A stretch of DNA of 64,000 nucleotides from positions 3,044,987 through 3,108,986 of the forward strand of contig NZ_CP101823.1 in assembly GCF_024498175.1 (NCBI RefSeq), read 5' to 3'. How positions within the stretch are numbered: position 1 is the first letter of the stretch; every line of letters starts with the position of its first letter. Both the position numbers and the translations under genes were made by a program. A model generated the notes under the pieces. That model searched no databases and was not told the origin of the DNA. It saw nothing but the letters and a program-made list of their open reading frames with translations. Below are positions 7,476-12,250 of the stretch, piece by piece. The DNA is from Haloplanus salinarum. Its GTDB lineage: Archaea; Halobacteriota; Halobacteria; Halobacteriales; Haloferacaceae.

Positions 7476-7508
7476 GGGCGGTGTCGGCAACCCACGGGGG
7501 CCGTGCAG

Positions 7509-9830
7509 TCACTCGCCGAGTTCACGCAGGGCGTCCCGGAGGTAGAGGACCGTCTCGTAGCGTTCGGATTTCTCCTTCGCGAGGGCGGTCAGCAACACCC
7601 TGTCCAGGGCTTGGGGCACGTCGGCGACGTCGCTCGGCGGCGTCGGCTCCTCGTCGAGGACGCGACGCATCGCCTTGCTGGGCCGGCCCTCGAACGGCGG
7701 GCGCCCGGTGAACAGCTCGTACAGCACCGCCCCGAGCTGGTAGATGTCGGTGATGTCGTCGGGGTTGCCGTACTGCTCGTCGAACTGCTCGGGGGCGGCG
7801 TACTGTGGGGACAGTCCTTCGATGCTCTTGGAGTGGTCCAGCAGGTGTTTCGAGAGCCCCCAGTCGGCGACCTTCGGTACGTCCCATGCGTCCTCGACCG
7901 ACCGGAAGAGGACGTTTTCGGGTTTGAGATCGAGGTGGGCGACGCCGCGGCGGTGGGCGTGGTGGACGCCCTCGGTAATGCCGAGCGCCGTCCACAGCGC
8001 CCGGTCGAACTCCAGTTCGCCCGCCCGGTCGCCCAAGTCACCGGCGTCCATGTACTCCATGGCGATCCAGGGGACGGGACTGGCGCCGTAGTCGACGACG
8101 CCGACGACGTGGTCGTGGTCGTCGATCTTGTCCCAGGTTTCGGCCTCCTCCATGAGTCGGTCGACGGCGTCGGTGTGCAGCGTCCCCTGCATCCGCGGGC
8201 GCTTGATGGCGAGGATCACGTCGCCGTCGGGGGTCGGCAGGGTCGCTTTGGCGACGTCGGCGTTGCCGCCGCCGCCGAGGGGTTCCTCGTCGGTCAGGGC
8301 GTCGTACTCGACCGAGACCTCAGGTGCCTGCGGAATTCGGTCGGGAGCGCCATCGGGGCGTTCCGGCACGTCGGTGCTTGTCCCGTCCCCGGATGCGGGG
8401 GACGCAGGCTGGTGATCCGGTGTCGATCCCCCTGCCAGTGTCGCGTTTCCTTCGGTTCCGGGGCCGTCGCTGCCCCTCCGCTTCCAGTACCACAGCCCTC
8501 CCGCGCCGGCGCCGGCGGCCCCCACGCCCGCGAGTGGGAGGAGTGGAACGTCGGAGTCACCGCCCTCGGTGCTACCGTCGCCGTCGCCGTCGGACGGATC
8601 GGCCGGCGGTGGCGTGGTGCGTGTGGGCGTGGTCGTCGACGTCGGGTCGGCGGCCGATGTCGGCGTCGCCTCGCCCTCGGAGAGCGCGTACACGGCGTCG
8701 TCGCTCCCGAAATAGACCCTCCCCCCCGCCACCGCCGGCGACGAGCGAACCGATCCCTCCGTCTCGAAGCGCCACCGCTCCTCGCCCGAGGCCGCGTCCA
8801 GCGCGTACACTCCAGTATCGCCGTTCCGGATCCCGACGTGGACGGTGCCGTCGACCACCGCCGGCGACGACCGGACTTGCCCGTCCAGGGAACGCCACCG
8901 GATCTCTCCCGACGCCGCATCAACCGCGTACACGCTGTTTTCGGGACTTATTCGGCCGACGTAGACGGTGCCGTCGGCCACCGCCGGTGACGCGATCACC
9001 GTGCTTTCCATCCCGAGTTGCCACCGCTCTTCGCCCGACGTCGCGTCCAGCGCGTACAACGTCCCGTTCAGGCTCCCGAAATAGACCGCCCCATCGGCCA
9101 CCGCCGGCGATGAAAGCACCACGCCCTCGGTCCCGAAGCGCCACCGCTCTTCACCCGACGTCGCGTCCAGCGCGTACAGGTTGGTGTCGGCGCTCCCGAC
9201 GTAGACGGTGCCGTCGACCACCGCCGGTGAGGAGTTCACCGCGTTCCCCGCCTCGAAGCGCCACCGCTCCTCGCCCGACCCCGTGTCCAGCGCGTACAGG
9301 TTGGCGTCGTCGCTCCCGACGTAGACGGTGCCGTCGACCACCGCCGGCGACGAAAATACGCCGTCCCCCGTCTCGAAGCGCCACCGTTCCTCGCCGGAGT
9401 CGGCGTCCAGCGCGTACAGGTTGGCGTCGTCGCTCCCGACGTAGACGGTGCCGTCGACCACCGCCGGTGGGGAGTTCACCGCGTCTCCCGTCTCGAAGCG
9501 CCACCGCTCCTCGCCGGAGTCGGCATCCAGCGCGTACAGGTTGCTGTTCCCCCTCCCGACGTAGACGGTGCCGTCGACCACCGCTGGCGACGAAACCACC
9601 GGTGCCCCAGTCGCGAACCGCCACCGCTCCCCGACGCTCCTCATCGGAGCCGTGTTCGCCGGTGCGTGTCTCGTGTTCGCGTTCTCGTATCCGAACCGAG
9701 GCCACGCTTCCGCGCTCTGCCCGCTCCCGACACCGGACGTCCCCGACGCCAACACACCGCCGACCGCCACACCGACCGTCCGCACGACGCCGCGTCGAGT
9801 CAACGACCCGACGATCTCCCCCTTCTCCAT
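7509..9830 (-). CDS. Receptor-like Ser/Thr kinase with extracytoplasmic PQQ propeller (paralogue 1)
   Basis: A 773-residue protein with a clear modular order. A Tat-like signal (RR at 12-13) with a hydrophobic core to about residue 36 comes first. Eight PQQ-type beta-propeller repeats of about 40 residues follow (66-386), each built on [26 protein letters not shown]-like elements. Next come a Thr/Pro-rich stalk, one membrane segment (about 428-448) closed by WYWKRRG, and a protein kinase domain from about 509. Kinase features are the glycine loop [12 protein letters not shown], the VAIK-like lysine in LAIKRP, the catalytic loop HLDLKPEN and a DWG in place of DFG. The propeller should face outside and the kinase the cytoplasm. 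The adjacent gene 9903-12173 is a paralogue with an almost identical kinase. Confidence 0.85.
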   Translation of the reverse strand: MEKGEIVGSLTRRGVVRTVGVAVGGVLASGTSGVGSGQSAEAWPRFGYENANTRHAPANTAPMRSVGERWRFATGAPVVSSPAVVDGTVYVGRGNSNLYALDADSGEERWRFETGDAVNSPPAVVDGTVYVGSDDANLYALDADSGEERWRFETGDGVFSSPAVVDGTVYVGSDDANLYALDTGSGEERWRFEAGNAVNSSPAVVDGTVYVGSADTNLYALDATSGEERWRFGTEGVVLSSPAVADGAVYFGSLNGTLYALDATSGEERWQLGMESTVIASPAVADGTVYVGRISPENSVYAVDAASGEIRWRSLDGQVRSSPAVVDGTVHVGIRNGDTGVYALDAASGEERWRFETEGSVRSSPAVAGGRVYFGSDDAVYALSEGEATPTSAADPTSTTTPTRTTPPPADPSDGDGDGSTEGGDSDVPLLPLAGVGAAGAGAGGLWYWKRRGSDGPGTEGNATLAGGSTPDHQPASPASGDGTSTDVPERPDGAPDRIPQAPEVSVEYDALTDEEPLGGGGNADVAKATLPTPDGDVILAIKRPRMQGTLHTDAVDRLMEEAETWDKIDDHDHVVGVVDYGASPVPWIAMEYMDAGDLGDRAGELEFDRALWTALGITEGVHHAHRRGVAHLDLKPENVLFRSVEDAWDVPKVADWGLSKHLLDHSKSIEGLSPQYAAPEQFDEQYGNPDDITDIYQLGAVLYELFTGRPPFEGRPSKAMRRVLDEEPTPPSDVADVPQALDRVLLTALAKEKSERYETVLYLRDALRELGE

Positions 9831-9854
9831 CCTTGCCTCGGTGTATCACACGTC

Positions 9855-9863
9855 AAATATAAA
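9855..9863 (-). promoter_or_regulatory. TATA box of propeller-kinase 1
   Basis: TTTATATTT on the minus strand is centred about 29 bp before ATG 9830. Only 72 bp separate the two kinase genes, so this one has its own leaderless promoter rather than depending on read-through. Confidence 0.65.
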
Positions 9864-9902
9864 TCGTTCGTCCTCGGAACCGACGGGATCGCCCCCGTCG
9901 AA

Positions 9903-12173
9903 TCACTCGCCGAGTTCACGCAGGGCGTCCCGGAGGTAGAGGACCGTCTCGTAGCGTTCGGATTTCTCCTTCGCGAGGGCGGTCAGTAACACCCTGTCCA
10001 GAGCTTGGGGCACGTCGGCGACGTCACTCGGCGGCGTCGGCTCCTCGTCGAGGACGCGACGCATCGCCTTGCTGGGCCGCCCCTCGAACGGCGGACGCCC
10101 GGTGAACAGCTCGTAGAGGACGGTCCCAAGCTGGTAGATGTCGGTGATGTCGTCGGGGTTGCCGTACTGCTCGTCGAACTGTTCGGGGGCGGCGTACTGC
10201 GGGGACAGCCCCTCGACGCTCTTGGAGTGGTCCAGCAGATGTTTCGAGAGTCCCCAGTCGGCGACCTTCGGCACGTCCCAGGCGTCCTCGACCGACCGGA
10301 AGAGGACGTTTTCGGGTTTGAGATCGAGGTGGGCGACGCCGCGGCGGTGGGCGTGGTGGACGCCTTCGACGATCCGAACGGCACTCCACACTGCCTGGTC
10401 GAACGGGAGGTCGCCGGCACGGTCGGCCAGGTGGCCGGCGTCCATGTACTCCATGGCGATCCAGGGGACGGGACTGGCGCCGTAGTCGACGACGCCGACG
10501 ACGTGGTCGTGGTCGTCGATCTTGTCCCAGGTTTCGGCCTCCTCCATGAGTCGGTCGACGGCGTCGGTGTGCAGCGTCCCCTGCATCCGCGGGCGCTTGA
10601 TGGCGAGGATCACGTCGCCGTCGGGGGTCGGCAGGGTCGCTTTGGCGACGTCGGCGTTGCCGCCGCCGCCGAGGGGTTCCTCGTCGGTCAGGGCGTCGTA
10701 CTCGACCGAGACCTCAGGTGCCTGCGGAATTCGGTCGGGGGCGCCGGCCCGTGAGCCACCGCCCGTCCCGCGGGAGTCGGTGGTGGGGCCGCCTGCCGAA
10801 CCGGGGTCGGTGCCCGGGGCGCTCCCGCCGGGCGTGGCGGCGCCCTCGCCGTTCCGTTTCCAGTACCACAGCCCTCCCGCGCCGACGCCCGCAGCGCCCA
10901 CGCCCGCGAGCGGAACGAGGGGCAGGTCGGAGCCGTCGTCGGCACCGGAGCCCCCTGCGTCGCCGCCGCTCCCGGACGGCGCGGTGGTCGTCGCCTCGGG
11001 CGTTGCGGTATCGCCGGCGAACGCGTACACACCGCCGCTTCCGACGTAGACGGTGCCGCCGACCACCGCCGGCGACGAAACGACCGACGCAGGTGACTGA
11101 ACGGCCCACTGCTCCCCGCCCGAGTCGGCGTCCAGTGCGTACGTGACGTCGGCGCTCCCGACGTAGACGGTGTCGCCGGCCACCGACGGCGACGAGTTCA
11201 CCGACGACCCCGTCTCGAAGCGCCAGCGCTCCTCGCCCGACCCCGCGTCCAGCGCGTACACGGTGTTGTCCCGACTCCCGACGTAGACGGTGCCGTCGGC
11301 CACCGCCGGCGTCGCACGGACCGTGTCCCGCGCCGCGAAGCGCCAGCGCTCCTCGCCCGACCCCGCATCCAGCGCGTGGACGACGTTGTCCCGACTCCCG
11401 ACGTAGACGGTGCCGTCGGCCACCGCCGGCGCCGAGAACACGGCCGCCCCTGCATCGAAGCGCCAGCGCTCCTCGCCCGACCCCGCGTCCAGGGCGCTGA
11501 CGCTGGTCGCAGCCGGGACCGCGACGTAGACGGTGTCGTCGACCGCCGCCGGCGCCGTGATCGAACTCACTCCCATCTCGGCGCGCCACCGTTCGTCGCC
11601 CGACGCCGCGTCCAGCGCGTGGACGACGCCGCCGCCCGCCCCGCCGCTTCCGACGTAGACGGTATCCTCGGCCACCGTCGGGGGCGAACTCACCTCCCCC
11701 ACCGTCGCAAAGCGCCACCGCTCCTCGCCCGATTCGGCGTCCAGTGCGTACAGGTTGGAGTTCACACACCCGACGTAGACGGTATCGCCCGCTACCGACG
11801 GCGACGCAACCACCGCATCCCCCGTCTCGAAGCGCCAGCGCTCCTCGCCCGAGGCCGCGTCCAGCGCATAGACGCCGCCGCCGCTCCTCCCGCTTCCGAC
11901 GTAGACGGTGCCGTCGACCACCGACGGCTGATGCTCGACGCTCCCACCGGTCTCGAACTGCCACCGTTCCGTGACGTTCGCCACCGGCCCGGCGTTCTCC
12001 GGTGCGTACCCGTCGTTGGCCGCGTTGAACCCGAACTGCGGCCACGACCCGCCGCTCTGTCCGCTCGCCTGGTCGGTCATCCCCCAGGTCAGCACGCTTC
12101 CGGTGACTGCCGCCCCGAGGGTCCGTAACGCTCCCCGCCGCGTCCACGTGCCACGTACACCCGACCCGTCCAT
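9903..12173 (-). CDS. Receptor-like Ser/Thr kinase with extracytoplasmic PQQ propeller (paralogue 2)
   Basis: A 756-residue paralogue of the downstream kinase, with the same order: Tat-type signal ([10 protein letters not shown] at 10-19), eight PQQ propeller repeats, a stalk, one membrane segment ending WYWKRNG, and a C-terminal kinase with the same HLDLKPEN and DWG motifs. The kinase half is almost base-for-base identical to paralogue 1, while the propeller repeats differ clearly and contain two longer Gly-rich loops ([14 protein letters not shown]). The sensed signals therefore probably differ while the output is shared. ATG 12173 is supported by the signal peptide and by a TATA box 28 bp upstream; the frame is open for another 266 codons, but these overlap upp antisense. 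Confidence 0.85.
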
Positions 12174-12196
12174 CTGTCCAGCGAGTATCACGCGAC

Positions 12197-12206
12197 TCAA
12201 ATAAAC
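12197..12206 (-). promoter_or_regulatory. TATA box of propeller-kinase 2
   Basis: GTTTATTTGA on the minus strand is centred about 28 bp upstream of ATG 12173. It lies back to back with the upp promoter at 12241. Confidence 0.6.
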
Positions 12207-12240
12207 GATTCGCCGAGCGAACGACGACCCGTCGCTGACG

Positions 12241-12250
12241 CTTATTTTAA
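12241..12250 (+). promoter_or_regulatory. TATA box of upp
   Basis: CTTATTTTAA is centred about 31 bp before ATG 12276, so the message has little or no leader. Confidence 0.6.

Follow-up and report, generated by a model that had tools for sequence, protein, structure and literature searches.

Tandem propeller-first, receptor-like Ser/Thr kinases in Haloplanus salinarum: a shared kinase with divergent predicted outside sensors

Background

Reports on the architecture of prokaryotic kinases describe kinases with pyrroloquinoline quinone (PQQ)-type repeats in Streptomyces and Deinococcus as well as the propeller of PknD (PMC1262709, PMC2877116, PMC12599244, PMC11007091). The PknD propeller is extracellular (PMC2877116), and the autokinase activity of Deinococcus RqkA is stimulated by PQQ (PMC11007091). 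A receptor layout in which the propeller comes first is not described in these four papers, and no description of such a layout in haloarchaea was found in the part of the literature that was searched. From archaea, Ser/Thr kinases of receptor type that carry a large exported sensor have hardly been described. Here we analyze two complete neighboring genes of Haloplanus salinarum, which lie 72 nt apart on the minus strand of the 3.45 Mb chromosome within a stretch of 64,000 nucleotides (NZ_CP101823.1, positions 3,044,987 to 3,108,986; hereafter the window, to which coordinates refer). Our reading, to which we assign a probability of roughly 75%, is that both products are receptor Ser/Thr kinases that cross the membrane once, with the propeller outside and the kinase inside, and that both belong to a haloarchaeal family with varied inputs.

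Domain order and predicted topology

The two genes and their parts are as follows.

7509 to 9830, minus strand: receptor-like kinase gene 1 (773 aa, P0001), from its open reading frame (ORF), domains and structure model
9717 to 9830, minus strand: putative twin-arginine translocation (Tat)-type signal region of gene 1, residues 1-38, TRRGVVRTVG, from the sequence motif alone
8676 to 9713, minus strand: eight-bladed PQQ/BamB-type propeller of gene 1, residues 40-385, from Pfam PF13360, the model and PDB matches
8484 to 8549, minus strand: predicted membrane segment of gene 1, residues 428-449, then KRR; charge-free run, Kyte-Doolittle peak 1.42, net charge -7 before and +1 after
7512 to 8339, minus strand: Ser/Thr kinase domain of gene 1, predicted to be cytoplasmic, residues 498-773, from Pfam, alignment and model
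9903 to 12173, minus strand: receptor-like kinase gene 2 (756 aa, P0002), from its ORF and domains
12054 to 12173, minus strand: putative Tat-type signal region of gene 2, residues 1-40, from the sequence motif
11013 to 12059, minus strand: eight-bladed propeller of gene 2, residues 39-387, from Pfam and blade count
10860 to 10925, minus strand: predicted membrane segment of gene 2, residues 417-438, then KR; Kyte-Doolittle peak 1.55, net charge -4 before and +1 after
9906 to 10733, minus strand: kinase domain of gene 2, residues 481-756, from Pfam and alignment

In both proteins a twin-arginine signal is followed by the propeller, a linker of Ser, Thr, Gly and acidic residues, a charge-free segment of 22 residues, a second flexible linker and the C-terminal kinase. 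The charge-free segments are Gly/Ala-rich, occur once per protein and end in WYWK(R). Both propellers match PQQ_2 in Pfam (E 7e-65 and 1e-65), and eight blades were counted in each. A structure model of gene 1, built with an alignment of 27 relatives, has a predicted local distance difference test (pLDDT) score of about 97 for the propeller (residues 40-385) and about 92 for the kinase (residues 495-772), while residues 390-490, the membrane segment included, are not resolved. In the model, eight blades bearing the PQQ repeat close into a ring, which places the propeller in the PQQ/BamB type. Its best fold matches are designed eight-bladed consensus propellers, YxaL and BamB (Cake8, Z 48.1; YxaL, Z 44.6; BamB, Z about 40), and PQQ dehydrogenases rank lower.

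The kinase domains match Pkinase in Pfam (E 2.5e-28 and 1e-29). The Hanks-type catalytic set (Lys, C-helix Glu, HxD Asp, Asn, DxG Asp, APE) is present in both genes, with K543, E562, H632-L-D634, N639, D656-W-G and APE 679-681 in gene 1 and the same set in gene 2. The best PDB matches of the kinase profile are of the PrkC/PknB/StkP type (E about 1e-36 to 1e-33), and in these alignments the positions of Lys, HxD, Asn, DxG and APE coincide. In the ranking by sequence the PknB/PrkC/StkP type comes first and ULK follows; no IRE1 or PERK kinase is among the 21 PDB chains at E 1e-20 or better. The ratio of nonsynonymous to synonymous divergence (dN/dS) is 0.14-0.29 for the kinase in nine pairs versus 0.42-0.57 for the N-terminal parts, and judged by this measure the kinase is under purifying selection. 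We class it as Hanks-type and PknB-like, and predict it to be catalytically competent.

The predicted topology was compared across 20 propeller-first and six kinase-first kinases from the same genus and other haloarchaea. Of the 20 propeller-first kinases, 19 carry a twin-arginine motif at the N-terminus as well as a charge-free segment that separates the propeller from the kinase; the remaining one (L162) has neither. None of the six kinase-first proteins (L049, L158, L159, L160) has a charge-free segment between the two domains. The sequence features and the family co-occurrence agree in pointing to an exported sensor, a single span and a cytoplasmic kinase.

The first-pass annotation had assigned to both proteins a Tat-type signal, eight PQQ propeller repeats, one membrane helix and a cytoplasmic kinase with HLDLKPEN, in the layout of a eukaryotic receptor Ser/Thr kinase. 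The domain order upholds that layout for both genes, the signal is found at the level of the twin-arginine motif, the blade count agrees, and HLDLKPEN is accompanied by the remaining catalytic residues in both proteins. The single helix stands in part: each protein has one charge-free segment before a K/R stretch, but that it forms a membrane helix we infer, because the segment is Gly/Ala-rich and unresolved in the gene 1 model. A cytoplasmic propeller or a loss of conserved catalytic residues had been named as what would overturn the assignment. The residues are kept, at the low dN/dS given above, and the co-occurrence of signal and membrane segment across the family argues for a propeller outside.

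Gene 1 starts at ATG 9830 and gene 2 at ATG 12173. The mechanical ORF of gene 2 extends to 12971, and ATG 12173 was chosen because the twin-arginine signal is then N-terminal. Each start is preceded by a TATA-like element.

9857 to 9863, minus strand: TATA-like TTTATAT, 27-33 nt upstream of the gene 1 ATG, from sequence
12199 to 12205, minus strand: TATA-like TTTATTT, 26-32 nt upstream of the gene 2 ATG, from sequence

A TATA element 26-33 nt before the ATG is the spacing expected for leaderless haloarchaeal transcripts. The two genes probably have separate promoters and leaderless transcripts, in line with the promoter of its own that each had been given.

Kinase copying within the pair

The kinase N-lobes of the two genes share an identical tract, with which the part common to both genes begins.

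8041 to 8345, minus strand: 305-nt tract of the gene 1 kinase N-lobe, identical to 10435-10739 by DNA comparison
10435 to 10739, minus strand: gene 2 partner of the identical 305-nt tract, by DNA comparison

The identity covers 56 four-fold sites, of which the nearest other paralogues keep about 62%. After the tract, an island of 23 codons differs at one in three bases, and the remainder is again about 92-100% identical. Overall, the two kinases are 96% identical with a synonymous divergence (dS) of 0.16, and the propellers are 59% identical with a dS of 0.57. In other pairs the values for kinase and N-terminal part lie closer to each other (0.47/0.52, 0.85/0.93, 0.60/0.63, 0.55/0.84 and 0.44/0.79). 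In trees, the two kinases are sisters (100/100) and the gene 1 propeller is nearer to the G003_L092 and L031 propellers than to that of gene 2. Given the 305 identical nucleotides and a kinase dS of 0.16 against a propeller dS of 0.57, unlike the other pairs, the kinase appears to have been copied between the neighbors, and gene conversion between the tandem genes is the simplest reading. The early observation that both genes carry the same kinase is therefore correct, with the likeness pointing to recent sequence copying and not to slow conservation. Within gene 1, the DNA of blades 2-4 shows 86-90% identity from blade to blade; on this comparison, blades are also copied.

Exchange of outside parts and distribution of the family

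The H. salinarum genome encodes at least seven propeller-first kinases, the window pair included, and about as many with other N-terminal parts. Fusion partners of this kinase module further include DnaK-GrpE, HEAT repeats, multi-helix membrane domains and a helicase. At one orthologous locus in three species (L034 in H. salinarum, G000; L091 in G003; L100 in G005) the upstream gene is common (about 90% DNA identity), and the DNA of the kinase and inner linker is 82-86% identical. The N-terminal part at this locus consists of several hydrophobic helices with no propeller in L034 and of a propeller in L091, and L100 is a tandem pair in which one gene has a propeller and the other an exported domain with no Pfam match. 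These comparisons indicate that the outside part is exchanged at an orthologous locus while the kinase is kept.

The close family occurs in three of 12 genomes of the genus and, order-wide, in 19 of 293 genomes at E 1e-60; named carriers include Haloglomus irregulare (tandem pair, L042) and Halobacteriales QS_8_69_26 (L045). No member was found in the nearest sampled relative, G006, where the site of the pair holds 6 bp.

7478 to 12244, no strand: 4,767-bp segment with the pair, replaced by 6 bp at the same site in G006, from genome comparison

In G003 and G005 the flanking genes are contiguous and the pair segment is missing from the site. A gain in the H. salinarum lineage would be simpler than three losses. 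Inverted repeats or mobile-element ends were sought around the inserted segment, and only GC-rich imperfect repeats were seen.

Several relatives are of interest in their own right. The tandem propeller-first kinases of Haloglomus irregulare (L042:750-5457) are far more diverged than the window pair, and the same species has a UvrD-like helicase, as read from sequence, fused to a kinase of this propeller-kinase family (L047:1854-5822). A 1139-residue ORF (L032:2643-6062, minus strand; orthologues L097 and L104) combines a DnaK-type chaperone (8-484), a GrpE-like part (752-863) and the same kinase (864-1131). A 1192-residue protein (L099:6411-9989) has a propeller, a PKD domain and two consecutive kinase domains, and in L035:3888-5480 the kinase comes first, followed by a membrane segment and an apparently plastocyanin/halocyanin-like C-terminus. 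Two Halomicrobium plasmid islands (L158, pHmuk01 76.6-102.7 kb; L160, pLC1Hm-01) contain at least six Ser/Thr kinases, some with HEAT repeats, along with genes for a Cpn60-like chaperonin, a restriction endonuclease and ParA; PP2C and Fic genes are further found on the pHmuk01 island. In the H. salinarum genome, kinase copies that are broken or truncated (L032:14397-15068 and following; L037:2868-3587) suggest continuing turnover. That genome has no FHA reader proteins and one PP2C phosphatase, which does not adjoin the pair.

Two other associations were considered and rejected. Viral contigs have no kinase relative, and in phage records the matches listed are to propeller repeats only, so a virus link was dropped. 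A defence-system label was likewise set aside: the PADLOC/NCBIfam matches to PD-T4-6, MAD6 and PglW cover the generic kinase domain only, and the NCBIfam scores are far under their cutoffs.

Alternative explanations

Several points weigh against two single-span receptors with exchangeable sensors. Kyte-Doolittle peaks of 1.42 and 1.55 are those of a weakly hydrophobic membrane segment, and this segment is unresolved in the model. The Tat assignment draws on a motif and its context. The 26 proteins of the topology comparison are not independent observations because the genes are related. HRD is HLD and DFG is DWG in all nine aligned kinases of the H. salinarum genome, and with the HRD Arg replaced by Leu, phosphorylation of the activation loop may act differently in their control. 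Resolution of the propeller tree is poor, with one of 18 inner branches well supported.

Were the signal or the membrane segment non-functional, propeller and kinase would both be cytoplasmic. The weak hydrophobicity would fit, as would the kinase-first relatives with no segment and the propeller-first relative lacking both elements, but the two elements go together in 19 of the 20 propeller-first genes, and we hold this to be the least probable of the explanations considered here. An outside propeller might also serve for attachment and not for sensing, as an adhesin or binding scaffold by which the kinase is tethered to cell-surface sites. The fold can act as a scaffold, since BamB serves the BAM complex as a binding subunit, and an ectodomain dN/dS of about 0.5 suggests weak constraint. 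Signal input, however, is what one would expect where the propeller is covalently linked to an intact kinase under constraint in many genes and where the outside part changes at a kinase locus that stays fixed; we consider a tether unlikely.

The propeller could instead bind PQQ, as in RqkA, with the kinase reporting redox or radiation stress; the PQQ-type repeats and the PQQ-stimulated autokinase of RqkA (PMC11007091) speak for such a quinoprotein kinase. Among the fold matches, though, designed consensus propellers, YxaL and BamB come nearest, and PQQ dehydrogenases rank below them. A vicinal cysteine pair is typical of PQQ dehydrogenases and is absent from both ectodomains (no Cys in gene 1, one in gene 2), which counts weakly against PQQ, and the domain order of RqkA is the reverse. 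A PqqC search of the genus gave no match, but control genomes were silent too, so that it was uninformative and not used. We consider PQQ sensing distinctly improbable. The receptors might also detect exported proteins that have misfolded and so be functional equivalents of IRE1/PERK in archaea, with which they would share the order of an exported PQQ-like domain, one helix and a kinase. A phmmer search with the gene 1 propeller retrieves the luminal domain of IRE1 (6shc, E 2.7e-9; 2hz6, E 3.8e-9), and another gene of the genome joins this kinase module to DnaK and GrpE. The IRE1 match may nevertheless reflect shared repeats only, the kinase is PknB-like with no KEN nuclease after it, and at least seven paralogues with none in the close relative G006 are a better fit to a dispensable, varied sensor set than to a housekeeping stress sensor; such a role is very improbable.

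Proposed mechanism

For the single-span receptor kinase that we favor, the Tat route would export the N-terminal propeller pre-folded, one Gly/Ala-rich helix would anchor it, and the PknB-like kinase would stay in the cytoplasm. An outside ligand, for which a protein, peptide or surface polymer is likelier than PQQ, would bind the propeller and alter the association of two receptors via the glycine-rich helix. The kinases thus brought together would autophosphorylate in trans and phosphorylate cytoplasmic substrates. In the haloarchaeal family one kinase module would be joined to many N-terminal input domains, with tandem copies keeping their output alike by kinase sequence copying as their inputs diverge or are exchanged.

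A bolder and doubtful extension is an archaeal receptor-kinase repertoire on the plan of plant receptor kinases, in which exported sensors would be exchanged, duplicated and rebuilt blade by blade, one kinase would be kept uniform by tandem copying, and other cells, viruses or neighbors would be recognized. One kinase with many inputs, and an input that changes at a fixed locus, offer natural experiments on how outside domains control a Hanks-type kinase, and the same family lets one ask what haloarchaea sense through such kinases.

Comparison with known systems

AfsK of Streptomyces and RqkA (DR2518) of Deinococcus resemble genes 1 and 2 in having a Hanks-type kinase and a PQQ-type propeller in a single chain. 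The NCBIfam profile of AfsK has the kinase at 20-248 and PQQ repeats at 637-809, the reverse of the order found here, and both genes score below its cutoff. RqkA likewise has its kinase first and its PQQ repeats last. In genes 1 and 2 the propeller comes first, is predicted to be exported and is separated from the kinase by a predicted membrane segment; they are not of the AfsK/RqkA type because the order is reversed. The first-pass view that a bacterial parallel would be kinase first is right for AfsK, and kinase-first forms, with no membrane segment, also occur in haloarchaea. BamB and YxaL share the eight-bladed fold of the gene 1 propeller (Z about 40-45) but are stand-alone proteins with no kinase; the PDB title of YxaL, 'membrane associated protein kinase', refers to a chain with a propeller only.

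PknB/PrkC/StkP and PknD are single-span receptor kinases, a topology predicted here for genes 1 and 2, and PknB/PrkC/StkP are nearest in kinase sequence. Their kinase is N-terminal and their sensor C-terminal, again the reverse, and the sensors are PASTA domains or a six-bladed propeller, in contrast to the eight-bladed PQQ type with a Tat signal. IRE1 and PERK, with an exported PQQ-like domain, one membrane helix and a C-terminal kinase, have the same order as genes 1 and 2. The haloarchaeal proteins differ from them in their PknB-like kinase, their closed eight-bladed propeller and the lack of a KEN nuclease: each protein ends at the kinase, and Pfam gives no nuclease domain. IRE1 and PERK are not among the structure-search matches listed, which is uninformative; the pair is set apart from them because the kinase lineage differs and there is no nuclease. 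With an order inverted relative to AfsK/RqkA and a layout like that of IRE1, these genes provide a simple comparative system for propeller-gated kinases.

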